Shown piece by piece: positions 2,802 to 27,102 of a stretch of DNA of 31,279 nt (position 1 is the first letter of the stretch; every line of letters starts with the position of its first letter). The translations under genes were made by a program, and so were the position numbers. The notes beneath the pieces were generated by a model. That model had not been told where the DNA came from. It was given only the letters and a program-made list of their open reading frames with translations, and searched no databases. Source of the DNA: a virus; the IMG/VR virus record IMGVR_UViG_3300032523_000273, positions 1 to 31,279 of that record, one strand, 5' to 3'.

Positions 2802-4328
2802 ATGGCGACTTATAATCGTCCTGGCGTTTACATCAGTGAACGCGTACTTCCTGCTCCAGTTGCAGTAACGGCTTCGGCTAATGCAGCGGGTGCAGTCTCT
2901 GGCACATTTGCCAGCGGTCCAACCACAACAACCTTAGTAAGTTCTTGGTATGAATTTACAAAGAATTTTGGTGGCTATAACGCTCTTTACCCAGCAACAT
3001 TTCAGGTAGGAGCCTTCTTTAAGAACGGTGGACGTGACCTCTACGTAAAGCGTGTTGTTGCAACAGATGCAACAGCAGCAGCAGCCATAGTTGGTCGTGC
3101 TTCTCTAGCAGCAGGAACCGTTGTAACCTTTACTGCAAAAGCAGTTGGAACTGACGGAAACAACCTACGAGTAAAACTTCAGGCAGGAACTTTAGGTACT
3201 GGTTACTATGACGTTCTTGTTTATAAAGAAGGAGTTGCAGGAACATCAAGCGATGTAACCAACGACGTACTTCTTGAGTCTTATGAGAACGTTGTACTAA
3301 ACTCAACAACCTCTAGCGACTACATGACAACTGTTATTAACGCAGTGTCTACATACATCACAGTAACAGTTGCAGACAACGCTAATGCCCCTGCTCTTGC
3401 GGTTTATCCGTTAGCAACAGGAAGCAACGGAAGTGCTGTTGCTCTTACTGATTTCCAAAGTGCAACATCTGGAACAATTGCTGCTTTTGATAACATTGAC
3501 CGACCATTGGTTGTGTTTTTGCCAGCACTTGCAGATGCTATTACTGCTACAAATGCTTCAACTCACACTATTGAGTTAATCAGTTGGGCAACAGGTAAGG
3601 GTATCCACTTCGTGGTTGCTGATACAGTCTCAGGTAGAACAGTTGCTCAAGCACTTACTGTTGCTACTACTTTGGCTGGCTCAAGTCATTCAGCAGTATA
3701 TTATCCAAACTATTACATCACCGACCCAGTCGGACGTTCTGCAAGTTCAATTCGTTTAATTGGACCCGCAGGTGCTATGGCTGGTATCTACATGAATACT
3801 GATGCAACTTTTGGTCCATTCAAGGCTCCAGCAGGTATTGGAACAACTGTTCAAGGTGCTATTAGTCTAGAAAAAGCATTTACATCTGCAGAACTAGATA
3901 GCCTTAATGGTGCCTCTGCTCCAGTAAATGCTATTCGTCAACTTCCAGGTGCAGGTATCTCAGTAATGGGTGCTCGTACATTGAAGAATGACGGTACAGC
4001 AAATAGGTATGTAAATATGCGTCGTTCATTAATCTACATTCGTAAACAACTTAATGACTTAACACAGTTTGCATTGTTTGAGAATAACGATGAAAAGTTG
4101 TGGCAACGTATTAATGCTGGATTAGGTACCTTCTTAAACGAGTACTACAACCAAGGTGGTCTACGCGGTAATAGCCCAGACCAAGCCTTCTTCATCAAAT
4201 GTGATGCAGAAAACAACCCAGACAATCTGATTGCTCAAGGTCAAGTCAATATTGAAGTTGGTGTTGCTCTGCAATACCCAGCCGAATTTATTGTCATTGC
4301 TTTGTCTCAGAAGACCGTTAACTCCTAA
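2802..4328 (+). CDS. Contractile tail sheath protein
   Basis: The 508-residue protein begins MATYNRPGVYISERVLP, the classic N-terminus of tail sheath proteins (PGVY..E). Its C-terminal domain carries RQLPGAGISVMGART, NMRRSLIYIRKQL and RGNSPDQAFFIKCD, then VNIEVGVALQYPAEFIVI, which are the conserved strands that link neighbouring sheath subunits. The middle (about residues 115-215) is variable, as in T4 gp18 and related sheaths. The sheath surrounds the tube and contracts to drive it through the cell envelope. AGGAG lies seven bases before the ATG. The tail tube gene follows 19 bases downstream, the standard pair order. Confidence 0.96.
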   Translation: MATYNRPGVYISERVLPAPVAVTASANAAGAVSGTFASGPTTTTLVSSWYEFTKNFGGYNALYPATFQVGAFFKNGGRDLYVKRVVATDATAAAAIVGRASLAAGTVVTFTAKAVGTDGNNLRVKLQAGTLGTGYYDVLVYKEGVAGTSSDVTNDVLLESYENVVLNSTTSSDYMTTVINAVSTYITVTVADNANAPALAVYPLATGSNGSAVALTDFQSATSGTIAAFDNIDRPLVVFLPALADAITATNASTHTIELISWATGKGIHFVVADTVSGRTVAQALTVATTLAGSSHSAVYYPNYYITDPVGRSASSIRLIGPAGAMAGIYMNTDATFGPFKAPAGIGTTVQGAISLEKAFTSAELDSLNGASAPVNAIRQLPGAGISVMGARTLKNDGTANRYVNMRRSLIYIRKQLNDLTQFALFENNDEKLWQRINAGLGTFLNEYYNQGGLRGNSPDQAFFIKCDAENNPDNLIAQGQVNIEVGVALQYPAEFIVIALSQKTVNS

Positions 4329-5965: not shown

Positions 5966-8737
5966 ATGGCAGAAGACGTTACTAGTGGGTTAAAGTCCAC
6001 TAACGACCTTCTAAAAGAAGTCCTTAAAAACCTTGGTGCTATAAATAAAGAAACTGATAAAACTCCAGGCAAAGTTGGAAAAGCCTTTGGCACTCTTAAA
6101 GCCCTCATGGCTGGTGGGTCACGTGGTAATGGCACAGGTGCTTCCAGCCAGATGTCTCACATGGAAGGCAAGTTCAGTGGGCGTGGAGATAGTAGTTATC
6201 GCGCTTATCATGAAGAAGCCAACTCAGTAATTGGTCGGTTCTCTAACAATCAAGACAGCAAAGCACTTGGTGTTGGGCGAGGTGTAGCACAAGCCACCTT
6301 TGGAATTATTGCAGGTATTGCTGCATCTGTGCCTGGTGCAGCAGAAGTTATGGGAAGTGCTGGTAACTACTACGGTGCTTCTTTACGTTCTGGCGGAATG
6401 TCACGTCAAGCAGTTCGAGAGGCAACTTTTGGCGGTCTTGCTGGTGGTGTAACTAGTACCTTGTCTCCTTCAACTACATCAGCAATTTTGGCTGCTCGTG
6501 GAATCATGCCTGGAAGTGCACAGTACAACGCTACTGTTGCACAAATCGGTGGTGCTGCTCGTTATATGAATATGGCTAACGAGAATGCTGCCGTTGCTAT
6601 GTCAGGTCTTACACAAGGCGGATTTAGTGCTCAGTTATACGGTATGGGTATTAGTACCTATGATGCAAAGACTGGTCAGATGCGTGACCAAAACCAAGTC
6701 TTTGAACAACTACATAGCCGTTTAACTTTTGGTCGTCCTGAGATGAACGCCCAAGACACCATGACTAGTATTCAAGCAGGTCAATTAGGTTTTATGATGA
6801 ATAGCCTTAATATGAGCGAAGACCAAAAAGGTATGTTCTCTCAATTTATGTTAGATAAAGCAGGTGGAAAAGAGACCGATTTATCAAAACTTGGTTATGG
6901 AGATAACCCTCTTAAAGACAAGATGCGTATTACAACCTCTGATACCTCTGTCTTAAATAAATATGAAGAGCCTTTCTTAAAGGGCTTTGAAAAAGCAGCA
7001 GATTTAATTGTTAATACTGTAAACCCAGCATTAGAAAAAATGGCAGATTCTGCGGGAAGAGCAGCAGGTTTCTTAGGAGGACTTGGCGAATCTCGTGCAG
7101 GAACTGGTATGGGTATTGCTACTGGTGGTCTTCTTCAAGGATTGATGACTGCTGGTGGTGCGTTCTTAGGTGCTCGTGGTTTAAAGGGTCTTATGGGCGG
7201 TAAAGGCGGAGGAATATTTGCTGGTGCTAAGGGTCTTTTTTCAAAACTTGGCGGAGTAAAAGGTCTTTTTGGAAAAGCAGGTCTTGCTGGAATGACCTAT
7301 ATGGGGTTAGAGCAAGGGCAAAAGTTTTTAAACAAAGCAAATGTTCCAGATGAAGTTCGTTATATTGCAAACCTTCTTTATGATGCAGGACAAGGTGGTC
7401 TTTCTGGATTAGCAACTGGAAACCCGTATGTAGGTCTTGCGGGTGTAGCAGCAGGTACTGCAGGTGCAGTTGCAAATCCTTACGGTGGTTCAGGTGGTGG
7501 TTCTCCAGGATTCGGTGCTTCATTTGGTGGAAGCAGTGGAAGTACAAATGCAGTAGCCCCTATTACTGGTGGCTCTGTTGGTACTCCCTACGGTGCAAAA
7601 GGAAAAATGTGGCAAAGCGGAAGTCACACAGGTGATGACTACCCATGTCCAATTGGAACACCAGTTGTTGCTGCTATGGATGGAACTGTCTTTAATGATA
7701 ACCCTGGCGACCAATACGGTAAGACTGTACAAATTGACCACGGCAATGGTTTACAAACTCTTTATGGTCACCTTTCAGAAGTTTCTGTGGCGGTGGGTGC
7801 AAATGTAAAGCGTGGACAAGTCATTGGTCGTTCTGGTGATACAGGTAATGTTACTGGTCCCCACCTTCACTTTGAAGTTCGCAAAGGTAAGAACAACCCA
7901 GTTAACCCTTCAGAGTTAACTAAAGATGGCGGAACATTAGCAGAAAGCCTTTCAACCATAATCCAAAATGGTGGATTAGGTTCTAGCCCACTTACATCTG
8001 ACATCTCTGGAGTAAAAGCAAACGAAGTAAAACTTTCAAATTTATTAGGTTCTTCAAGCACTACTGCAATTTTGCAAGCATCTGTTGGACAAATAGGTGG
8101 TGGAGATAACGGTACTGGTACTGGTAGTTCTAGTGGCACTGCAAAAGTTGTAAAAGGAACTGGTGACAAGAAAAGTTGGGCTACACAACTACTTACTGCT
8201 ATGGGTGCTCCTGTAACTGATACAAATATCAATGCTCTTACTACTTGGCAAAGTAGAGAAGGGGGTCACTGGGAAAACAGTGCAAGTTACAACCCACTTA
8301 ATACAACTTATGACCCAGACAAAAAGTACGAGTCAATGAATAGCGTTGGAGTAAGACGTTATCCCTCTTGGGATGAAGGAATTGCAGCAACAGTAAATAC
8401 TTTAACAGGAAACAATGCTGAGGCTCGTGGGTATAGTGCAATTGTTAACGCTCTAAAAGGAGGTGCAAATACCTCTACTATTCTTAGTGCTATTAGCAAC
8501 TCTGCATGGGTGAGTGGAAAAACTGGACAAAACTCTTATAAAGGATTTAGTGGAGGCGGTTCTCCATCATCTACTGGAGCAACTATGTCTGGTAGCGGAG
8601 TACAAATCTCAGCCCCACAAATCACAATCAATGCTTCTTTTAGCGGAACAAGCGAAGCAGAAGCCATGAAATTAGTATCTGTTGTAAAACGAGAACTAGA
8701 AAAAACCATGACACTACACACGATTGGTAGAGGATAA
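5966..8737 (+). CDS. Tape measure protein with M23 peptidase and lysozyme-like domains
   Basis: The 923-residue protein follows the chaperone and is the longest tail gene, as expected for the tape measure that sets tail length and passes down the tube. Residues 1-530 hold helical and Gly/Ala-rich hydrophobic segments (for example [20 protein letters not shown]) and Gly-rich linkers. About residues 535-660 form an M23 metallopeptidase: HTGDDY with H554 and D558, then YGHLSEV, then HLHFE at 633-637. Residues about 735-870 resemble the lysozyme/transglycosylase-like module seen in actinophage tape measures ([32 protein letters not shown]). A short helical C-terminus follows. Such domains can open the cell wall during DNA entry. 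AAGGAG precedes the ATG, and the end overlaps the next gene. Confidence 0.93.
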
Positions 8738-9999: not shown

Positions 10000-10274
10000 T
10001 TTATTTAGATAGCAGATATGCGGATGGAAACATATTTAAAGCCTATAACCCTACTAAAGACAGTTTTGAACAAACAGTGTTTAGAGTGTTCCCTGAAAAA
10101 GCCTCTGAAATTTTTTATTACCAGTGGAAAGAAGGAGACCGCATAGATTTAGTTGCAACTAAACTATTGGGGTTACCCGAATACTGGTGGCAAATTATGG
10201 ACTTTAACCCAGAGATTATTAATCCATTTACCATCACTAGTGGTACGTATATAAGGATTCCTAATGGCGATTAG
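9996..10274 (+). CDS. gp53/LysM-like baseplate protein
   Basis: The 92-residue protein contains YYQWKEGDRIDLVATKLLG, then PEYWWQIMDFNPEI, then PFTITSGTYIRIP. This is the LysM-like pattern (G-D at the start, a helix, W..I...N, and P-G-T-x-I-R-I-P at the end) used by T4 gp53-type wedge proteins and by tail protein X. In T4, gp53 ties baseplate wedges to the hub. It lies directly upstream of the hub gene and overlaps it by 11 bases. The protein is almost only this domain, preceded by a 35-residue arm. Confidence 0.8.
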   Translation: MIYLDSRYADGNIFKAYNPTKDSFEQTVFRVFPEKASEIFYYQWKEGDRIDLVATKLLGLPEYWWQIMDFNPEIINPFTITSGTYIRIPNGD

Positions 10275-11532
10275 CAGTATCCCAGCAGGGTATCAAGCAA
10301 GGTATGGGACTAGTTATACTGTAACTTTTCCTGACTTTCCAACTTTTAAAACTAAACCCTACGAGATTGAGTTGCATCAAGCAATTAGAACTCACGATAT
10401 TTTAATTTTAAAGTTTCAAGTTTCAACGCCTTTATTCTTTAAGGGGTTTAAAACTGGAACAACAGTGCAGGTAAATTGGACGAACTCTGCTCCCGCAAAA
10501 GGAGTATTTACTGGATACGTCTCAACAGTTAGAAAATCTAAAAAATCTCCAGTAAATAGTGATGTTGAAATCACGTGTATTGGTGGGTCTTTCCCTTTAA
10601 AAAACCAAGCCTCAAATATATGGAAGAAAAAAAGTATTCCTGAAGTTGTTCAAGAAATTGCAAAAAAGAGTAACATGAAAGCCATTGTTACTAGTCACCC
10701 AACTAAATGGAGTCAGTTAAACCAACAAGGGTTATCGTATTGGGAGTACCTAGTTACGTTAGCAACCTCCTTGGGTTATGCCTTATGGGTAAAGGGAACA
10801 ACTATTTATTTTAAAAGTATTGACGATGTGTTAACAAAATCTATTGGAACAACCCCAGTTCTTTACTTTGAAAATCAATTTGCTCCTCCATTTCACGCAC
10901 CTATTGAAAGAACTTTAGATTATTTTGAGCCAACTTCTGGAGACTTTATTGAAGGAGAAGGCGTTGTTCAAAGACGAACACAACAAGTAACTGGAGTTGA
11001 CCCAGTTACTGGAAAAACTTACGGCTCTGTCCAAACCCCTCAAACTAAAAAAACTATGAGAACTAAATTTAATCAGGTGTTGTTTGAACATCAGGGCACT
11101 ATGAAAGTTGTTAACTCTGCAAGTGACGCTAAAATAATAGCAAAAGGTGCTACCGAAAATGCACGATTAACAAATACAGCGTGGTGGTCAGGTCAAGGAG
11201 ACCCTCGTATAACTCCTTATGGAGCGGTAGATGTACAGGGTATTGACGACATCAATGACGGTATTTGGTTGGTCAGGTCTGCTACTCATGTGATGAGTAA
11301 AGTGGGTACATACATCTGTAGTGGTTATTTAATGTGCGAAGGAAGTGGACCCGCTGAGTCTACAAATCAACGAGTTTCTGGTCTTGGCCTTATCCCAGCA
11401 TTAAATTTAATTGACCTTGAAGATGGCGATTCACTAGGAGTATCGGCTACTCCAACATTATCGTCACCAACTTCTATGTTTAATGAAACCCAAAGCGGAT
11501 ATACTTTGAACTCTAGAAGATGGGTAGGATAA
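10264..11532 (+). CDS. Baseplate hub protein (gp27/gpD-like)
   Basis: The 422-residue protein starts MAISSIPAGYQARYG and contains VQVNWTNS.....GVFTGYVS and VEITCIGGSFPLKNQ. It then has SIPEVVQEIAKKSNMKA and HPTKWSQLNQQGLSYWEYL. The last pattern, an H...W.Q..Q.G.S.WE.L..LA...GY segment, is the hallmark of hub proteins of the T4 gp27/P2 gpD type, which form the tube-like trimer that joins the tail tube to the spike. The segment QGIDDINDGIWLVRSATHVM matches the second tube-like domain. The C-terminal 55 residues are low in structure. Its partners gp25 and gp6/J follow at once. Confidence 0.85.
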   Translation: MAISSIPAGYQARYGTSYTVTFPDFPTFKTKPYEIELHQAIRTHDILILKFQVSTPLFFKGFKTGTTVQVNWTNSAPAKGVFTGYVSTVRKSKKSPVNSDVEITCIGGSFPLKNQASNIWKKKSIPEVVQEIAKKSNMKAIVTSHPTKWSQLNQQGLSYWEYLVTLATSLGYALWVKGTTIYFKSIDDVLTKSIGTTPVLYFENQFAPPFHAPIERTLDYFEPTSGDFIEGEGVVQRRTQQVTGVDPVTGKTYGSVQTPQTKKTMRTKFNQVLFEHQGTMKVVNSASDAKIIAKGATENARLTNTAWWSGQGDPRITPYGAVDVQGIDDINDGIWLVRSATHVMSKVGTYICSGYLMCEGSGPAESTNQRVSGLGLIPALNLIDLEDGDSLGVSATPTLSSPTSMFNETQSGYTLNSRRWVG

Positions 11533-11534
11533 CT

Positions 11535-11936
11535 ATGGCTGAAAAAGCAATTTCGTTGCCGTTTAAGTTAGACTCTTACGGAAGAATAAGTACTTCTGCT
11601 ACCTATTCTGAAATTTGGTCTGACCGAGTTCTGTCTGTTATGGGTACTCTAAAGGGAGAAAGAGTTATGGAGCCAGATTTTGGCACCTATCTTGCAACCT
11701 TTGTTTATGGAAATGCAAGCAATTTAACGACTTCTATAGAAACAGAAGTTGAACAAGGGTTTATAAAGTTCTTGCCTTTGTTAAACTTGGTGTCTACAGA
11801 AGTTGTAGCAGACGAATTTACGGGTTCTTTAGACATAGTTATAACGTATGAACTACCTACTGAAGAAGAGCAAACAACCGTGGTAGCCCTTGCTGCTATC
11901 TCTAGAAAACAACCTATTTATCAGGAGAACCTATAA
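11535..11936 (+). CDS. Baseplate wedge protein gp25-like
   Basis: The protein has 133 residues from the ATG at 11535. An in-frame ATG five codons upstream (11520) lies inside the hub gene and has a weaker ribosome site; the TAGGA just before 11535 favours the later start. It contains LKGERVMEPDFGTYLATFVY, the conserved (G)ER.M.PDFG..L segment of gp25/gpW-like wedge proteins. The C-terminal half has the strands and helix expected of the small lysozyme-like fold of gp25, which has no catalytic activity in phage baseplates. gp25 joins the wedge to the sheath. The stop overlaps the start of the gp6/J-like gene. Confidence 0.9.
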   Translation: MAEKAISLPFKLDSYGRISTSATYSEIWSDRVLSVMGTLKGERVMEPDFGTYLATFVYGNASNLTTSIETEVEQGFIKFLPLLNLVSTEVVADEFTGSLDIVITYELPTEEEQTTVVALAAISRKQPIYQENL

Positions 11937-13486
11937 TGGCTATAAATGAAACCCCACCATCGGTCGATTATACAAGTCGCGACTACTATGCGTTAAAACA
12001 AGAGTTGATTGCTCGTGTTAAAAGAGTTGTTCCTGAGTGGAATGGTGCAGACAGTTCAGATTTTGGTCTTGCATTAGTTGAAGCATTTGCTTATATGGGA
12101 GATATGGCAAGTTACTACATTGACAGAATTGCTAACGAAGGATTTTTAGCGACAGCAACTCAAAGAAGTTCTATCCTGGCTTTGGCAGAAATCTATGGCT
12201 ATACACCAACAGGATATTCAAATGCTAATGTAACTTTGACTTTTACTAACACATCGACTTCTGCTGTTGAACTACCTGCTGGTGTAAGAGTCACTGCAGA
12301 TGTCACAGATGGGACTTCCGTAAAAAACGTAACCTTCACAACATACGTAGCAGTCAGCGTACCCGCATTTGCAAGTGGTGTTGCTGGACAAGCAACCGTT
12401 GCTGCTTATGAAGGTGCTGTTAATACAGTGGAGTCTTCCTCAGTTTATGGTGCCATTATCGGCACTTCTGACGGTTCTTCGGAACAACGCTTTACTATTT
12501 TTGACGACCCAATTGTTTCAGACAGCGTAGAAGTTTTTGTACAAAGCGGTAGTGATTATAAAAAGTGGACGCAAGTAAAACATCTATTAGATTTTGGTCC
12601 CGCTGATTCTGTATATTCTGTAGTTCTTGATAAAGACAATGTTGTTTCTATCGTTTTTGGCGATGGAATATCTGGTGCTATCCCAACTCTACAAGCAATT
12701 GTCCGTGCAAAGTACACAGTTGGTGGCGGAACTATCGGTAACATATCAATCGCACTTATAGATTCAATATCTTATGTTCCAGGACTTACTTCTAATCAAA
12801 CTGCTGCTTTAAGTGGAAACCTTTCCGTAACTAACGCCGTAACAGGCGTTGGTGGTCAAGACCCAGAGAGCAGTTCTTCAATTCGTGCAAATGCTCCTTT
12901 GTTCTTACGAGCACAAAACAGAGCAGTAACTTTGGAAGACTTTGAAAACTTGGCTTTATCTGTGGACAACTGCGGAAAAGCAAAAGCGGTATCAACGGGG
13001 TATACCTCCGTTACTGTTTATCTTGCTCCAAGACGAGACAGCGGAGATGCAGATGCAACTCCTGGTCTTGAGACAGACTCTCCTTATGGTGCAACAATTG
13101 AATGGACTGCTTTAAGAGACTCAGTTAAAGCGTATTTAGCAGATAAATTATTAGCGGGAACAACTGTAACTTATACAATTCCAACGTATGTTGCAGTAAC
13201 CTTAAACGTTCAATACAAATTAGACCCTTCATATACAACCGCAGAGGCCGAGTCTAATGTTAAGACCTACATCATTAATAACTTCTCGTATTTTTATCAA
13301 GATTTTGGGTCAGTAATTACTGCACAAGACCTTGAATATGTATTGCAAACAGTTCCTGGAATTACAAAAGGTAAAGTACAGTTTTTATATAAAACTGGAG
13401 GAAGCCCAAGCCTTACAGAAATATCTGCGCTTTCTAATGAAATCCTCTCCTTTGCTGAAGGCTCACTTATCCTAGAGGCATTATGA
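11936..13486 (+). CDS. Baseplate wedge protein gp6/J-like
   Basis: The 516-residue protein opens with VDYTSRDYYALKQELIARV and has SSDFGLALVEAFAYMGDMA at about residues 41-59, then YYIDRIANEGFLATATQR. These N-terminal motifs define the J-like (P2 gpJ/T4 gp6) family, whose dimers form the ring of the inner baseplate. Downstream are VFGDGISGAIP and a segment with NAPLFLRAQNRAVTLEDFEN, both well known in this family. The C-terminal region (TTVTYTIPTYVAVTLNVQYK) fits the last domain. It starts on a TAATG overlap with gp25 and overlaps the spike gene by four bases. Confidence 0.94.
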   Translation: MAINETPPSVDYTSRDYYALKQELIARVKRVVPEWNGADSSDFGLALVEAFAYMGDMASYYIDRIANEGFLATATQRSSILALAEIYGYTPTGYSNANVTLTFTNTSTSAVELPAGVRVTADVTDGTSVKNVTFTTYVAVSVPAFASGVAGQATVAAYEGAVNTVESSSVYGAIIGTSDGSSEQRFTIFDDPIVSDSVEVFVQSGSDYKKWTQVKHLLDFGPADSVYSVVLDKDNVVSIVFGDGISGAIPTLQAIVRAKYTVGGGTIGNISIALIDSISYVPGLTSNQTAALSGNLSVTNAVTGVGGQDPESSSSIRANAPLFLRAQNRAVTLEDFENLALSVDNCGKAKAVSTGYTSVTVYLAPRRDSGDADATPGLETDSPYGATIEWTALRDSVKAYLADKLLAGTTVTYTIPTYVAVTLNVQYKLDPSYTTAEAESNVKTYIINNFSYFYQDFGSVITAQDLEYVLQTVPGITKGKVQFLYKTGGSPSLTEISALSNEILSFAEGSLILEAL

Positions 13487-13956
13487 GTCAAGATTTATAT
13501 TACGGAGTTTACAGAGGCTTGGTTGTTGATAATAACGACCCACAAGGTCATCGTCGAGTAACCCTTAAGGTTCCTCAATTAACTGGCGACTTTGTTTCTG
13601 ATTGGGCTTGGCCTCAAGAAAACGGCTTTGCTAAAGTACAAGTGCCTGACATTGGTGAAGGTGTTTGGGTTATGTTTGAGGGTGGGGACTCTTCATACCC
13701 AATTTGGACTGGAACTTTTGGCAAGCCTAAACAAGACAAAAGAGTAAACATTAAAGTTTTGAAAGATACAACGTCTTTATCGGGAATAGAAAATACTCAC
13801 ATCATTACCGAACGTACAAAAAACGGCACAACAGAGGTAGACCTTGTAGCAACCCTCTTAGTTATGGCAGCCAAAATTAAAAGTTTAGAGACAAGAGTGA
13901 CTACTTTAGAGGGACAAATGGCAACAAAAGCAAGTACCAGCCATAGTCACGCATAG
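13483..13956 (+). CDS. Short OB-fold spike with coiled coil and HxH tip
   Basis: The 157-residue protein begins LYYGVYRGLVVDNNDPQGHR, the standard opening of the OB-fold of T4 gp5/P2 gpV-type spike proteins, followed by DIGEGVWVMFEGGD and PIWTGTFG. About residues 118-147 are heptad-like (VMAAKIKSLETRVTTLEGQM), suggesting a trimeric coiled coil. The protein ends SHSHA, with H154 and H156. In P2 gpV and related spikes three H-x-H motifs hold one metal ion at the tip. This spike lacks lysozyme and beta-helix parts. The gene follows the wedge gene rather than the hub, an uncommon order. Confidence 0.75.
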   Translation: MSQDLYYGVYRGLVVDNNDPQGHRRVTLKVPQLTGDFVSDWAWPQENGFAKVQVPDIGEGVWVMFEGGDSSYPIWTGTFGKPKQDKRVNIKVLKDTTSLSGIENTHIITERTKNGTTEVDLVATLLVMAAKIKSLETRVTTLEGQMATKASTSHSHA

Positions 13957-13973
13957 TTAAGACAGTTTTTAAC
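13956..13973 (+). promoter_or_regulatory. Palindromic element, copy B (GTTAAGA...GTTTTTAAC)
   Basis: The 18 bases repeat the outer parts of the element at 1562-1585: GTTAAGA, here two bases instead of eight in the centre, then GTTTTTAAC. They can form a 7-bp AT-rich stem. It sits in the 59-base gap before the first fibre gene and ends 42 bases before its ATG, almost the same distance as copy A. The first base is the last base of the spike stop codon. A promoter or activator site for the fibre block is a fair guess; it is too weak to be a terminator. Confidence 0.35.
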
Positions 13974-14015
13974 CCCATTTAACGACAAAATAGACCGAGA
14001 CATTTAGGAGACAAC

Positions 14016-14693
14016 ATGCCAGCCGTATATCCCAGTAGCGTAAAGCCCTTTGACCCAAAGGTTGACTTTACTCAGGTAGTAGTTGCAGAACACATTAACA
14101 GTCTGCAAGACGAAGTTCAAGCAGTTGAAACTTATGTTGGAGTGTCGCCTCACGTTTCCGCTGGATACGGCTCAGGTGTAGGTACTTTTATAACAGGAAC
14201 TACCACTTGGTCTACTTTGGCAGCCCGTGTTCAAAATCTTGAATACGGTATTAACGCTGATGTACACACCCAATATTTAAAGTTCACTGGTGGAGAAACA
14301 ATCCAGTCTTCCAACTCAACTGTTATTGCTCTAAACCTTCAAGGATTTTCAGGTCAAACTGCGGACCTTCTTCGGTTTAAAAATTCCTCTGGAACTGTTC
14401 TTACTAAAGTAGATTCTGCTGGAAAGTTATTTGTAAATAGCCAAGAAATTAAACCTATCTTGATGCAATCAACTCAACCTGATGCTGCTGCTTTAGGACT
14501 TCCAACAGGAACAATTTGGGTTGACTCAGATTCAGCACCTGCTGTTCTTACTGCTGACACGACACTACAAATTACTGGCGGAACTCTTACAGGAGACCAA
14601 GCACTTACCTCACGACTTCGTAATATCACGGTCTCTACTGCTGACCCAACTGGTGGTAATAACGGAGACATCTGGATTAAGTACACGGCTTAG
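14016..14693 (+). CDS. Tail fibre / short collar-fibre protein
   Basis: The 225-residue protein has an N-terminal helix with the pattern VVAEHINSLQDEVQAVETYV (about residues 22-41), probably a short trimeric coiled coil. It then has NADVHTQYLKF, an H.QYL motif common at the junctions of phage fibre proteins. The middle is rich in Ser, Thr and Gly and beta-prone (ALNLQGFSGQTADLLRF). The C-terminus (STADPTGGNNGDIWIKYTA) is a typical fibre tip or intermolecular segment. TTAGGAG lies six bases before the ATG. It opens the fibre block and may join the baseplate to the larger fibre genes downstream. No enzyme motif is visible. Confidence 0.75.
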   Translation: MPAVYPSSVKPFDPKVDFTQVVVAEHINSLQDEVQAVETYVGVSPHVSAGYGSGVGTFITGTTTWSTLAARVQNLEYGINADVHTQYLKFTGGETIQSSNSTVIALNLQGFSGQTADLLRFKNSSGTVLTKVDSAGKLFVNSQEIKPILMQSTQPDAAALGLPTGTIWVDSDSAPAVLTADTTLQITGGTLTGDQALTSRLRNITVSTADPTGGNNGDIWIKYTA

Positions 14694-14704
14694 GACGACC
14701 TTTA

Positions 14705-15922
14705 ATGGCTATCGGTTCTAAGGTATCTGGCAACTTTAAGTCTGCTTCTGGGCTATTTGCAAAAGTAAATGGCGGTTGGAAGAAGGCTAAATTTGGCTAC
14801 ATAAAAGTTAACGGTCAGTGGCAACAATTTTGGGCAGATAAGTTAGAAGATACATTTAACAGAACAGACACAACTAACACTCTTGGAGTTGCCGAGTCTG
14901 GTCAAGCGTGGACTATCCTAAGAAGTCAATGGCGTATTAACTCTAACAACGCTAATACAACGGGAGCAAAAACAGATTATCCATTAGCCTCTATTGATGC
15001 TGGTTTTTTAGACTTTGACCTTCAAGCCAACGAGTTAACTCCAGGAACAGGTGTTGCTATCCGTGTAACGGATGCAAATAACTGGTGGGGTGTTGTTCCT
15101 TACTATAATCAAACGGCTCAAACTTATTCTTACTGCGTAGCCTCTCATCAAGAAAGTTATTGTATTGCTGCTTGTACTGAACCTGCTGGATACAACCTAG
15201 TCTGTAATCCCCCAAATGTTTCCATTTTTGAAGATATTTACGACTGGACATGTCCTGGTGGATATGAACTTGTGTATTACGATGAATGGGTTTTAATTTC
15301 TGAAGGTGCGTGTACAACAGTAGTCGTTCCAGGTGAGTGCTACAACGAATACCGCCAAAACTGTTCTTACCAATGGACAACCTCTGGAATAAGACAAGTT
15401 TGTAATCCAGGTATGACACGAATCTGTGACCCAGCCACATCTGAAACGGTCTGTGACGACGATGTGTATGAATTACAAGAAACTTACTACGAAGACTGTC
15501 CTGGTGGAGAAGTTTATGCAAAAATAGGCTATTCGCACGAGTGTTCTCCAGACGGGTTCGATAATGTTCCGTATTATGATTGTTGCCAAGCAGGTTCTGA
15601 AACTATATGTGACCAAACAGCCACAGGCACGACATATACCAACTACTACTATCTACAGGTTGTAAAGATGGTAAATGGAGTGTTTTCTGTTGTAGCAGAT
15701 GTTTCTGTTCCAGAAAGATGGTCTGCGGTAAAGGTTTCTGCAAGCAGCAACTCTTTAACTGTTAGGGCCTTTACTGATAGCATTTACACCAATCAAATTG
15801 GGACCTATTCAACCACCTCCTTCTTTGAAACTGGAACTGGTTACGGAGTTGTAGCCCGTCCAAGTAACTTTGAAGATGGACGTACAATAGGCTCACTATT
15901 TGTTAAACCGTTAGGACAATAA
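14705..15922 (+). CDS. Jelly-roll fibre protein with a 16-cysteine insert
   Basis: The 405-residue protein opens with two short repeats of the K-V-N-G-x-W kind (FAKVNGGWKKAKFGYIKVNG), common in fibre N-termini. A laminin-G/concanavalin-like jelly roll starts near residue 50 (DTFNRTDTTNTLGVAESGQ) and ends near 400. Between VTDANNWWGVVPYYNQ and YYYLQVVKMVNG, which are adjacent strands in simpler relatives, lies an insert with 16 cysteines from C144 to C302. It is rich in Tyr, Asp and Glu and holds loosely repeated CPGGYEL/CPGGEVY and CNP units. Nothing else in the window has such a cysteine content. The insert probably sits on the particle surface and may bind the host receptor. Confidence 0.75.
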   Translation: MAIGSKVSGNFKSASGLFAKVNGGWKKAKFGYIKVNGQWQQFWADKLEDTFNRTDTTNTLGVAESGQAWTILRSQWRINSNNANTTGAKTDYPLASIDAGFLDFDLQANELTPGTGVAIRVTDANNWWGVVPYYNQTAQTYSYCVASHQESYCIAACTEPAGYNLVCNPPNVSIFEDIYDWTCPGGYELVYYDEWVLISEGACTTVVVPGECYNEYRQNCSYQWTTSGIRQVCNPGMTRICDPATSETVCDDDVYELQETYYEDCPGGEVYAKIGYSHECSPDGFDNVPYYDCCQAGSETICDQTATGTTYTNYYYLQVVKMVNGVFSVVADVSVPERWSAVKVSASSNSLTVRAFTDSIYTNQIGTYSTTSFFETGTGYGVVARPSNFEDGRTIGSLFVKPLGQ

Positions 15923-15923
15923 T

Positions 15924-16205
15924 ATGGAAAAAAGACCTTGGGATATTTGGAAAGAAAAACAAGCAGGAGATTCAGTTCGTCCTTGGGATTTACTCAACCC
16001 TAAAATAGGAAGAGTAGACGAAGAAACCTTTGAATATCGGTATACTAATCACTGTCTTAACTGCCCATTTTTAATTCAAGCCACAAAAACTTGTAAGAAA
16101 TGTGGTTGCTTTATGACTAAAAAGGCTGAATTGCCTCACGCTTCATGCCCCATAGGTAAGTGGGGACCTGTTACAGTATCTACCGAAGGAGAATCAAATG
16201 AGTGA
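15924..16205 (+). CDS. Cys-rich DUF6171-like zinc-ribbon protein
   Basis: The 93-residue protein has a duplicated RPWD motif (RPWDIW and RPWDLL) and then six cysteines: C44, C47, C57, C60, C62 and C75, in the frame C..C.........C..CGC............C. The segments KKCGCFM and CPIGKW are typical of a small zinc-ribbon family often found in tailed phages near structural genes (DUF6171, as I recall). It probably holds one zinc ion through four of the cysteines. It starts one base after the fibre stop and overlaps the next gene by eight bases. The role is unknown. Confidence 0.65.
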   Translation: MEKRPWDIWKEKQAGDSVRPWDLLNPKIGRVDEETFEYRYTNHCLNCPFLIQATKTCKKCGCFMTKKAELPHASCPIGKWGPVTVSTEGESNE

Positions 16206-21248: not shown

Positions 21249-21948
21249 TGAACTTCCCTCACTTAACAAGCACTGGATTATGCGTAACTCAAATATCCCA
21301 CGACGCTTTCTGGGATACGAGCCAAGCGATATGGACACAGCGTTTCCTCAAGTAGTAAATGAGTGGCTTGAGGATTTAGTATCTGGGTCTGTCATCAAAC
21401 AAGTAGGTGGACTGGGACTTACGGGCGTGGGTCTTTTGTTTGATGGCGGACCTGGACTAGGCAAAACAACACATGCTGTAGTTGCAGCGATGGAGTTTGT
21501 TCGTCGATTAAACCCAGAAGAATGCAAAAACATATTGCGATACAACAGCGAGTCTGACTTCGGCATGTTGTCTCGTCCTATTTATTACCTAACTTACCCT
21601 GAATTTCTATCCCGTAAGAAGGCTATGTTTGACGCAGATATTGAAGAAAAACGTGAGATGAACAGACAGATTGAGGGGTTTCATGGTCGTGCTAAAGAAG
21701 ATTGGTTAAACGTTCGTTTATTAATACTTGATGATTTAGGAAAAGAGTACGGTTCTAAATACGATGACGCATCATTTGATGAGATTTTACGCAGTCGTTA
21801 TGACCGTGCATTGCCTACAATAGTAACTACCAACGAGATGCTGGAAAATTGGTCCGCCAAATACAGCAACGCGATGGCAAGTTTTGCTAATGAGGCGTTC
21901 CAACGTGTTCGACTAACTGGCAAAGACTTACGAAGGGCTACAGCATGA
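21232..21948 (+). CDS. DnaC-like AAA+ helicase loader
   Basis: The 238-residue protein starts with TTG at 21232. The stop just before it in the same frame, and GAGGGG eight bases upstream, fix this start; the first in-frame ATG comes only 16 codons later. Walker A is GGPGLGKTT (residues 72-80) and Walker B is LLILDDLGKEY (about 162-172). The later RYDRALPTIVTTNE matches the sensor-1 region, ending in a T-N dyad, and an Arg-containing C-terminus follows. These are the features of DnaC/IstB-type loaders, which place the replicative helicase on DNA. A DnaB-like helicase gene lies 0.7 kb downstream. Confidence 0.88.
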   Translation: MTYQVDELPSLNKHWIMRNSNIPRRFLGYEPSDMDTAFPQVVNEWLEDLVSGSVIKQVGGLGLTGVGLLFDGGPGLGKTTHAVVAAMEFVRRLNPEECKNILRYNSESDFGMLSRPIYYLTYPEFLSRKKAMFDADIEEKREMNRQIEGFHGRAKEDWLNVRLLILDDLGKEYGSKYDDASFDEILRSRYDRALPTIVTTNEMLENWSAKYSNAMASFANEAFQRVRLTGKDLRRATA

Positions 21949-22244
21949 AAGGTTCACAATTGGAACAGTGGCGTACAGTCCAAGTATTTCTCTCACCTAC
22001 GGGTGTGTATGAAGTACAACTACGCCCTAACGACACCGATGCACAATGTTCGTGTCCATCATTTAAAATTAGAAACGGGTGTAAACACGCTACGTTTGTA
22101 CAGACCCGTATGTCTGAGAACAACGGTCAGTATGCAATCCTGGTACCTGATGATGTGCCAGAAGAAATTCAAGCAAGAGCCAATGAGTCCGCAGAGACTT
22201 TCCGCAACTTCATTTTAAAGTACGCTAGAGTAGAGGTGTTGTGA
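21945..22244 (+). CDS. SWIM zinc-finger protein
   Basis: The 99-residue protein has C35-S-C37, then eight residues, then C46-K-H48. This is the CxCxnCxH signature of SWIM domains, preceded by a two-strand segment (VYEVQLRPNDTDAQ), as is usual. SWIM fingers bind DNA or proteins and occur in recombination and chromatin proteins. The C-terminal 40 residues are helical and charged (PEEIQARANESAETFRN). It starts on an ATGA overlap with the loader gene and its stop overlaps the next start, so it belongs to the replication operon. The partner is unknown. Confidence 0.8.
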   Translation: MKGSQLEQWRTVQVFLSPTGVYEVQLRPNDTDAQCSCPSFKIRNGCKHATFVQTRMSENNGQYAILVPDDVPEEIQARANESAETFRNFILKYARVEVL

Positions 22245-26664: not shown

Positions 26665-27102
26665 ATGGTTGAGCGAATTGATGGACCAAGAGAGTTTAAC
26701 TCTGATGACTTACTAGGGCAGACCAAAGAGTACGCCTCAATAAAGAAAAACTTAGACTTGTATGAAGCACGTCAAAAGGAATTAAAAGCATCTCTGTTTG
26801 AAAAAATTGAAGCCGATGGTTTTACTGATGACAAAGGTAACTGGTGGTTAGAGTTGCCTGAACCTGTTGGTGATTATGTAAGCCTACAAAAACAAAAGCG
26901 TGTTACTCGTAAGATTGATGAAATGATTGCAGAAGACCTTCTTGAAAAGAAAGGTCTTACTGAACGTCTTTACAAAACAGTTCGTATAGTTGATGAAGAT
27001 GAACTAATGGCTGCTTTGTACGAAGGACTTCTTACAGAAGAAGAAATTGATGAGATGTTCCCAGCAAAAATTGTCTGGGCATTAATGCTAAGTAAGAAGT
27101 AA
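26665..27102 (+). CDS. Hypothetical acidic protein with N-terminal coiled coil
   Basis: The 145-residue protein has a charged helical N-terminus (KEYASIKKNLDLYEARQKEL, possible coiled coil), a short strand region with NWWLELPEPVGDYVSLQKQ, and a helical C-terminus with the acidic pair EDELMAAL and TEEEIDEMF. AGGAG lies seven bases before the ATG. It sits between the SNF2 helicase and a MerR-like gene in the replication operon. I recognise the general style from phage replication regions but not a named family. Confidence 0.6.
   Translation: MVERIDGPREFNSDDLLGQTKEYASIKKNLDLYEARQKELKASLFEKIEADGFTDDKGNWWLELPEPVGDYVSLQKQKRVTRKIDEMIAEDLLEKKGLTERLYKTVRIVDEDELMAALYEGLLTEEEIDEMFPAKIVWALMLSKK

Follow-up and report, generated by a model that had tools for sequence, protein, structure and literature searches.

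A predicted disulfide-laddered hairpin arm in a jelly-roll tail protein of an uncultured contractile-tailed phage

A 405-residue protein encoded in the window, by which we mean the whole 31,279-nucleotide stretch of viral DNA analyzed here (IMG/VR record IMGVR_UViG_3300032523_000273), is likely an adhesin-type protein from the tail of a contractile-tailed phage, with a disulfide-laddered hairpin arm. At its N terminus it would have a segment for attachment, followed by a lectin-type jelly roll resembling CBM66; from the turn between two adjacent strands of this jelly roll would grow a long antiparallel beta arm of two strands, roughly 30 nm in length if fully extended. The 16 cysteines of the arm are predicted to pair mostly from one strand to the other, forming a ladder with about eight disulfide rungs, the most likely pairs being 144-302, 153-293, 157-294, 167-280, 183-265, 203-250, 212-241, and 220-233. 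These bonds probably form once lysis has exposed the particle to oxygen, and they would make the arm rigid and protease-resistant. The arms of relatives would lengthen, shorten, and change face through matched changes on both strands, which would keep the cysteine number even, and contact with the host surface is most likely made by the exposed and rapidly varying faces and tip of the arm, either alone or together with the pocket of the jelly roll. The genes and protein segments concerned are the following (positions in the window):

2802-4328: tail sheath
5966-8737: tape-measure-like protein with an endopeptidase domain
10264-11532: tail protein
11936-13486, + strand: baseplate J / wedge protein (Pfam PF04865; PHROG 219, E 8.4e-49)
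13483-13956: OB-domain baseplate protein
14016-14693, + strand: tail-fiber-like gene just before the gene under study, 225 residues, no cysteine (PHROG 14064, tail fiber protein, E 3.5e-5)
14705-15922, + strand: gene of the 405-residue tail-region protein with the cysteine-rich insert; its neighbors are baseplate and tail genes
14705-14842, + strand: residues 1-46, KVxGxWK-type repeats with low pLDDT (PHROG 36019 matches residues 1-44, PHROG 25859 residues 5-45)
14843-15097, + strand: residues 47-131, first half of the jelly roll, VTDANNWW at 121-128; kept in 18 diverse sequences, fold match to CBM66
15098-15640, + strand: residues 132-312, cysteine-rich insert with all 16 cysteines, predicted from cysteine positions, a model of the insert alone, and mirror symmetry to be a single long antiparallel beta-hairpin arm
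15098-15379, + strand: residues 132-225, predicted outgoing arm with Cys 144, 153, 157, 167, 183, 203, 212, and 220 (insert-model strands 7-35, 41-51, 57-68, 72-77, and 81-94)
15380-15385, + strand: residues 226-227, predicted tip turn, the gap between insert-model strands 81-94 and 97-110 and between whole-model strands 212-225 and 228-241
15386-15640, + strand: residues 228-312, predicted returning arm with Cys 233, 241, 250, 265, 280, 293, 294, and 302 (insert-model strands 97-110, 114-119, 123-133, 139-150, and 155-180)
15641-15919, + strand: residues 313-405, second half of the jelly roll, source of the C-scaffold profile; kept in 18 sequences, fold match to CBM66

Gene neighborhood and jelly-roll scaffold

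The gene sits in the baseplate-fiber cluster of a contractile-tailed phage, and its place among tail, baseplate, and fiber genes is the genomic context of a phage receptor-binding protein. Residues 1-46 are probably the part that attaches the protein to the virion. Tail-fiber or sheath genes also lie near the family gene in five of the six relatives whose neighbors were scanned (L018, L009, L011, L020, and L043); the single scanned neighbor gene of L010 matched nothing. Over all 11,215 bases that were compared, an IMG/VR contig (L001) shows no difference from the window. Positions 11936-15922 gave no cultured-phage match at E 0.001 with blastn, and four family members gave none at E 0.01 with tblastn against 50,697 phage records. 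The best listed cultured-phage matches of the baseplate and polymerase genes are to Streptomyces phages, at about 30-36% identity, which is a weak hint at an actinomycete host.

Just downstream of the gene lies a 93-residue reading frame (15924-16205, +) with six cysteines (CLNCPF...CKKCGC), zinc-ribbon-like by eye, whose product matches DUF6171 (E 1.3e-5, 26 bits against a cut-off of 27) and phrog_13558. Elsewhere in the window, a 71-residue reading frame (1174-1389, +) holds seven cysteines (9.9%) with no Pfam match and may not be a gene; a 99-residue replication-region protein (21945-22244, +) contains a SWIM zinc finger (PF04434, above cut-off); and the product of 26665-27102 (+) has a weak ferritin-like match (PF00210, E 0.0024, below cut-off). 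An antisense reading frame of 154 residues with a TTG start (15057-15521, -) overlaps the cysteine-rich stretch and is probably no more than a side effect of codon usage. Two relatives have, close to their tail genes, a tryptophan-halogenase-like gene (L018:8509-9984) and a beta-1,4-glycosyltransferase-like gene (L009:2780-3844), respectively.

All cysteines of the protein, exactly 16, fall within residues 144-302, so that the interval given in the initial annotation, 15134-15610, begins with the first cysteine codon and ends with the last. Both flanking stretches it named, VTDANNWW and YYYLQVVK, are present, and the structural limits of the insert, residues 132-312 (15098-15640), are slightly wider than the cysteine span. 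Such clustering is far beyond chance, since the other 39 reading frames counted average 0.64% cysteine (62 in 9620 residues), a rate at which at least 16 cysteines in 159 residues have a binomial probability of 1.4e-14.

That this insert breaks a jelly roll between neighboring strands had been read from the sequence by the initial annotation, and structure prediction bears it out. An AlphaFold2 model of the whole protein (pLDDT 70.7, pTM 0.43, 9-row alignment) leaves the jelly roll intact on the two sides of the insert, which interrupts the turn between adjacent strands. The best-ranked solved match of the scaffold (VIA-align, predicted model residues 61..404) is a CBM66 chain, 4b1m_C, with Z 16.0, rmsd 2.9, and 149 of 161 residues aligned; on the predicted model, the halves on both sides of the insert align with this beta sandwich. 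The scaffold thus shares its fold with the CBM66 of Bacillus subtilis (4b1m, 4b1l, 4azz) and with concanavalin-like jelly rolls, a predicted likeness that says nothing on function. In contrast to the window protein, the CBM66 chain cannot accommodate an insert of this kind, because 149 of its 161 residues are taken up by the alignment, and the two have no sequence match: at E up to 1 the window protein hit no Pfam family and, in a sequence profile search, no PDB chain.

An insert-less relative also bears on the position. One peptide pattern searched against bacterial genomes matched 10 stretches, one of which, with half of the scaffold matched, is a relative: a Paenibacillus protein (L102) in which fibronectin-type-like repeats, judged by eye, accompany the jelly roll and whose scaffold is 35% identical over residues 47-128. 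Here a short turn links the VTDANNWW strand to the one after it, and the insert of the window protein therefore occupies the turn between two adjacent strands. Six predicted structures in BFVD match the whole-protein model at E <= 1e-3 (A0A6J5KM36, A0A6J5RDN1, A0A6J5MLT4, A0A6J7WRS3, A0A6J5REI5, and A0A6J7WYT9); all are proteins of uncultured Caudovirales annotated only as "Uncharacterized protein," and on this structural likeness they probably belong to the same family.

Cysteine parity, mirror symmetry, and the hairpin model

We built N- and C-scaffold HMMs from the two jelly-roll halves of 18 aligned proteins and ran them on all reading frames of 210 loci, so that inserts were bounded by scaffold rather than by cysteines. 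The N scaffold was found in 60 reading frames and both scaffolds in 54, yielding 49 distinct inserts of 58-378 residues; six reading frames with the N scaffold only were left out, four at contig ends (L077, L033, L118, and L108), one with no insert (L102), and one with a doubtful match (L092). Cysteine makes up 11.3% of the residues in these inserts and 0.06% in the scaffold. The inserts are far from uniform, their sequences being beyond alignment between groups, and every one of the 49 has an even number of cysteines, ranging from 2 to 40. The rule holds for 33 of 33 representatives at 60% identity and 28 of 28 at 50%, where 11 other residues are even in only about half (12 to 16 of the 28). 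Later scans added eight inserts, with 36, 32, 64, 32, 32, 0, 16, and 38 cysteines; these widen the sequences more than the families, because the majority are related to L105 or to the window family. The total is thus 57 distinct inserts at this site in IMG/VR loci, of which 56 contain cysteine (2-64), all of them in even number. The cysteine-free addition, L220 (match 2501-2770), counted among the 57 and left out of the 56, is a Tyr-rich insert of 92 residues with no cysteine at all. In L042, L043, and L044, two different family members lie close together on one contig, with inserts of 6 and 8 cysteines.

Common descent of the inserts was allowed for by Fitch parsimony on a FastTree phylogeny of the scaffold, which shows 32 changes of cysteine number and none of parity; on the same tree Ser, Thr, Tyr, Asn, Gly, Asp, Pro, Ala, and Val undergo 14-20 parity changes each. 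Counting even against odd cysteine numbers is a published sign of disulfide use, in the part of that work available to us (PMC3177088). The absence of parity changes indicates that cysteines are gained and lost in pairs and hence are most likely bonded in pairs, so that disulfide pairing of the insert cysteines is, on sequence grounds, well supported.

How the cysteines might pair is suggested by a model of the insert alone (AlphaFold2, residues 132-312, 7 sequences), a single antiparallel hairpin of great length that turns near residue 226, with a mean pLDDT of 87.3 (81.7 to 87.3 over five models). Its strands are palindromic (7-35/155-180, 41-51/139-150, 57-68/123-133, 72-77/114-119, and 81-94/97-110). 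The inner cysteine pairs 203-250, 212-241, and 220-233 stand in exact register, each summing to 453 (in insert numbering, 72+119 = 81+110 = 89+102 = 191), and the outer pairs sum to 446-451. The weak repeats CPGGYEL (at Cys183) and CPGGEVY (at Cys265), both pointed out by the initial annotation and both present, face each other in the predicted hairpin (183+265 = 448, with the axis at about 450). The "small module" that it had proposed becomes a very long hairpin in this prediction, which carries the caveats of low pTM (0.43 for the whole protein, 0.35 for the insert), shallow alignments (9 and 7 rows), and a possible preference of AlphaFold2 for long hairpins. The best match of the insert model among 985 chains aligned reached Z 2.8, and Foldseek returned none at E 1e-3; such failed matches do not prove a new fold. 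Pore-forming toxins were considered and dismissed, as they match only as long hairpins (TM <= 0.23 among the matches listed, best 50), with no functional meaning.

Two properties of the sequences that are independent of the model carry the same symmetry. We shuffled the gaps between cysteines in the 53 of 57 inserts with at least six of them, and found mirrored spacing in the window protein (p 0.008) and p < 0.05 in 18 of the 53, comprising the window family and several unrelated inserts. Among 28 representatives at 50% identity, seven fall below 0.05 (Fisher p 1.3e-6), and among 15 at 40% identity, four do (Fisher p 1.6e-4). None of the control residues Tyr, Thr, Ser, Gly, Asp, Pro, and Asn reached a Fisher p of 0.05 (0.098 to 0.73); Asn gave 0.098, and Thr, with p < 0.05 in 5 of 31, gave 0.14.

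The second property is variability. In eight close relatives the column variability of mirrored positions correlates, peaking at i+j = 450 with r 0.87; without detrending, high values also occur at both ends of the scan (0.72 at 422 and 0.77 at 478), where fewer positions overlap. After detrending, r is 0.61, and 0.58 with cysteines masked, values that none of 60 circular shifts reach. Taken by sequence pair, the peak lies at 449-453 in nine of ten and at 440 in one. In addition, one relative (L008) lacks Cys157 and Cys294 jointly, which favors the pairs 157-294 and 153-293 over strictly nested pairing at that place. In the window family alone, model and mirror tests together indicate an antiparallel hairpin with facing cysteines, and there the hairpin is well supported.

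Variation of the arms and competing readings

Several of the large inserts consist of two types of repeat unit, one per arm, in equal numbers: four and four in L105 and L107, seven and seven in L271 and L273, two and two in L280, where the order of the arms is exchanged, and five and five in L020. Counts are unequal in L272 (5/6), L106 (2/1), L277 (1/3), and L278 (1/3), and L109 has zero for both motifs. The motifs were picked after inspection of the sequences, and unit counts are therefore supporting evidence only. By eye, one unit type in L271 and L273 has mostly three cysteines and the other has one; the even totals are thus not the result of two-cysteine units, and in these two inserts the total stays even only when the two arms change in concert. 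A CCSGV-type unit lies in the outgoing arm of L271 and L273 and near the end of the returning arm in L280 (both units) and L106 (one of two), a placement that looks as if the faces had swapped places.

Close relatives differ by segments that mirror each other. The window protein and L003 are only about half identical at residues about 166-180 and 270-284 and 0.62-0.84 identical between them; around the tip (residues 211-254) L002 and L003 are 0.89-0.96 identical, and the window protein differs from both (0.58-0.76). This pattern would be expected if facing segments of the two strands were exchanged or evolved together. The earlier suggestion that the insert swaps as a unit thus holds in that whole inserts differ among relatives, and falls short in that close relatives also vary by mirrored segments within it. 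Diversification by a retroelement seems less likely: RVT_1 occurs in none of the seven phage records scanned, L001's included, records that may be fragments. The eight close relatives form 28 pairs, and in the 21 covered by the dN/dS analysis dN in the insert is about two- to fivefold that in the scaffold; dS is mostly higher too. Insert dN/dS is below 1 in 17 of the 21, that is, in every pair in which dS could be computed (e.g., dN 0.17 and dS 0.64 for the window and L002, 0.25 and 0.81 for the window and L003). These ratios do not point to positive selection on the insert, and we do not invoke it.

The insert could be disulfide-bonded and still be compact and knotted, or a chain of small loops closed locally, with the long hairpin an artifact of modeling. 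Cysteines are often closely spaced, in 94 CC, 64 CxC, and 66 CxxC clusters across the 57 inserts; 35 of the 53 inserts tested are without cysteine mirror symmetry (p of 0.05 or more), the pTM is low, and some bonds in L271 and L273 must lie within one arm, because one unit type there carries mostly three cysteines. Bonds may accordingly close local loops in the inserts without mirror symmetry. As an account of the arm this reading seems to us distinctly unlikely, given that variability in the window family stays mirrored with cysteines masked, that the three inner pairs are in exact register, that L008 is without both partners of one predicted pair, and that unit counts match between the arms of six inserts. 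The cysteines might instead bind metal, as zinc or Fe-S clusters that hold a compact module together. This would suit the frequent CxxC motif and the finding that cysteine number is a multiple of four in 22 of 30 cluster representatives, above the expectation for even counts (p 0.008). Pairing alone does not predict this excess; four-cysteine rungs, as in the 3+1 repeats, could explain it. Metal binding sits poorly with the eight of 30 representatives that are not multiples of four, with a His content of 0.3% of insert residues, and with the lack of a Pfam family for the window protein, and sites of three cysteines plus another ligand would permit odd counts, of which there are none among 56. 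We judge it very improbable, so that of the "disulfide- or metal-stabilized" insert first proposed, the disulfide half is upheld by the even counts in 56 of 56 and the metal half is disfavored.

With the laddered hairpin as the preferred structure, the remaining question is what the arm does. It might have no binding role and act as a spacer that gives structure or protects, say, from proteases or desiccation, the host being bound by the jelly roll or by another protein. The low dN relative to dS of the insert would fit a spacer, as would the contribution of disulfides to particle stability described for phage Milano in the part of that work available to us (PMC10811340). Yet insert dN exceeds scaffold dN about two- to fivefold in the 21 pairs, and whole inserts are beyond alignment between relatives that share the scaffold, as expected of a contact surface. 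A spacer without a binding role is therefore, in our estimation, rather unlikely, and the laddered arm would more probably serve receptor binding or surface adhesion and may in that way contribute to host range.

Known cystine ladders and significance

The ladder principle itself is known. In the portions of the literature available to us, theta-defensins carry a cystine ladder of parallel disulfides across a two-stranded sheet (PMC10096437), and green-algal HAP2, a surface protein, carries a species-specific, cystine-ladder-like loop insertion that is a potential interaction site (PMC6327110). Both share with the proposed phage arm parallel disulfides across antiparallel strands, a likeness of structural principle for which we claim no sequence relation. 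As described there, they hold three disulfides in 18 to 37 residues, whereas eight are predicted in the 181 residues of the window arm and up to 32 in its relatives, if all of 64 cysteines are paired. Neither arms of this size nor the rule of pairing, evolution in mirrored segments, or a location in a phage tail protein turned up among the papers listed by searches of open-access literature (titles and abstract openings), and no cysteine-rich insert of this kind is described in them.

Agrobacterium phage Milano establishes that disulfides can be numerous in the tail and baseplate of a phage: they are reported to be extensive in its contractile tail and baseplate, fiber attachment included (PMC10811340). 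In the passages available, many of them are inter-chain locks of sheath and baseplate, and the structural proteins average 2.1% cysteine (PMC10811340); in the window protein, unlike in Milano, cysteines are confined to one stretch of 159 residues with 10% cysteine. The same literature passages contain no account of how the Milano disulfides form. We considered a phage-encoded thioredoxin as a helper in the present family and rejected it, a thioredoxin family being found in one of seven whole records (L105's) and absent from L001's.

We tentatively suggest that giant cystine-ladder hairpins could constitute an undescribed class of phage appendage, inserted at a single turn of a lectin-like jelly roll, with 8 to about 32 disulfides each, gaining and losing facing units in a coupled manner under strict full pairing of cysteines, and acting as a variable host-contact element of various uncultured phages. 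To our knowledge, phage tail proteins, which are made in a reducing cytoplasm, seldom rely on disulfides. A whole family that seems to depend on full pairing of up to 64 cysteines raises the question of how and at what point these bonds arise. On a single conserved scaffold the arms show strong variation; they may be the element by which these phages contact their hosts, and a rigid arm that tolerates variation between two fixed anchors would be useful as a display scaffold.
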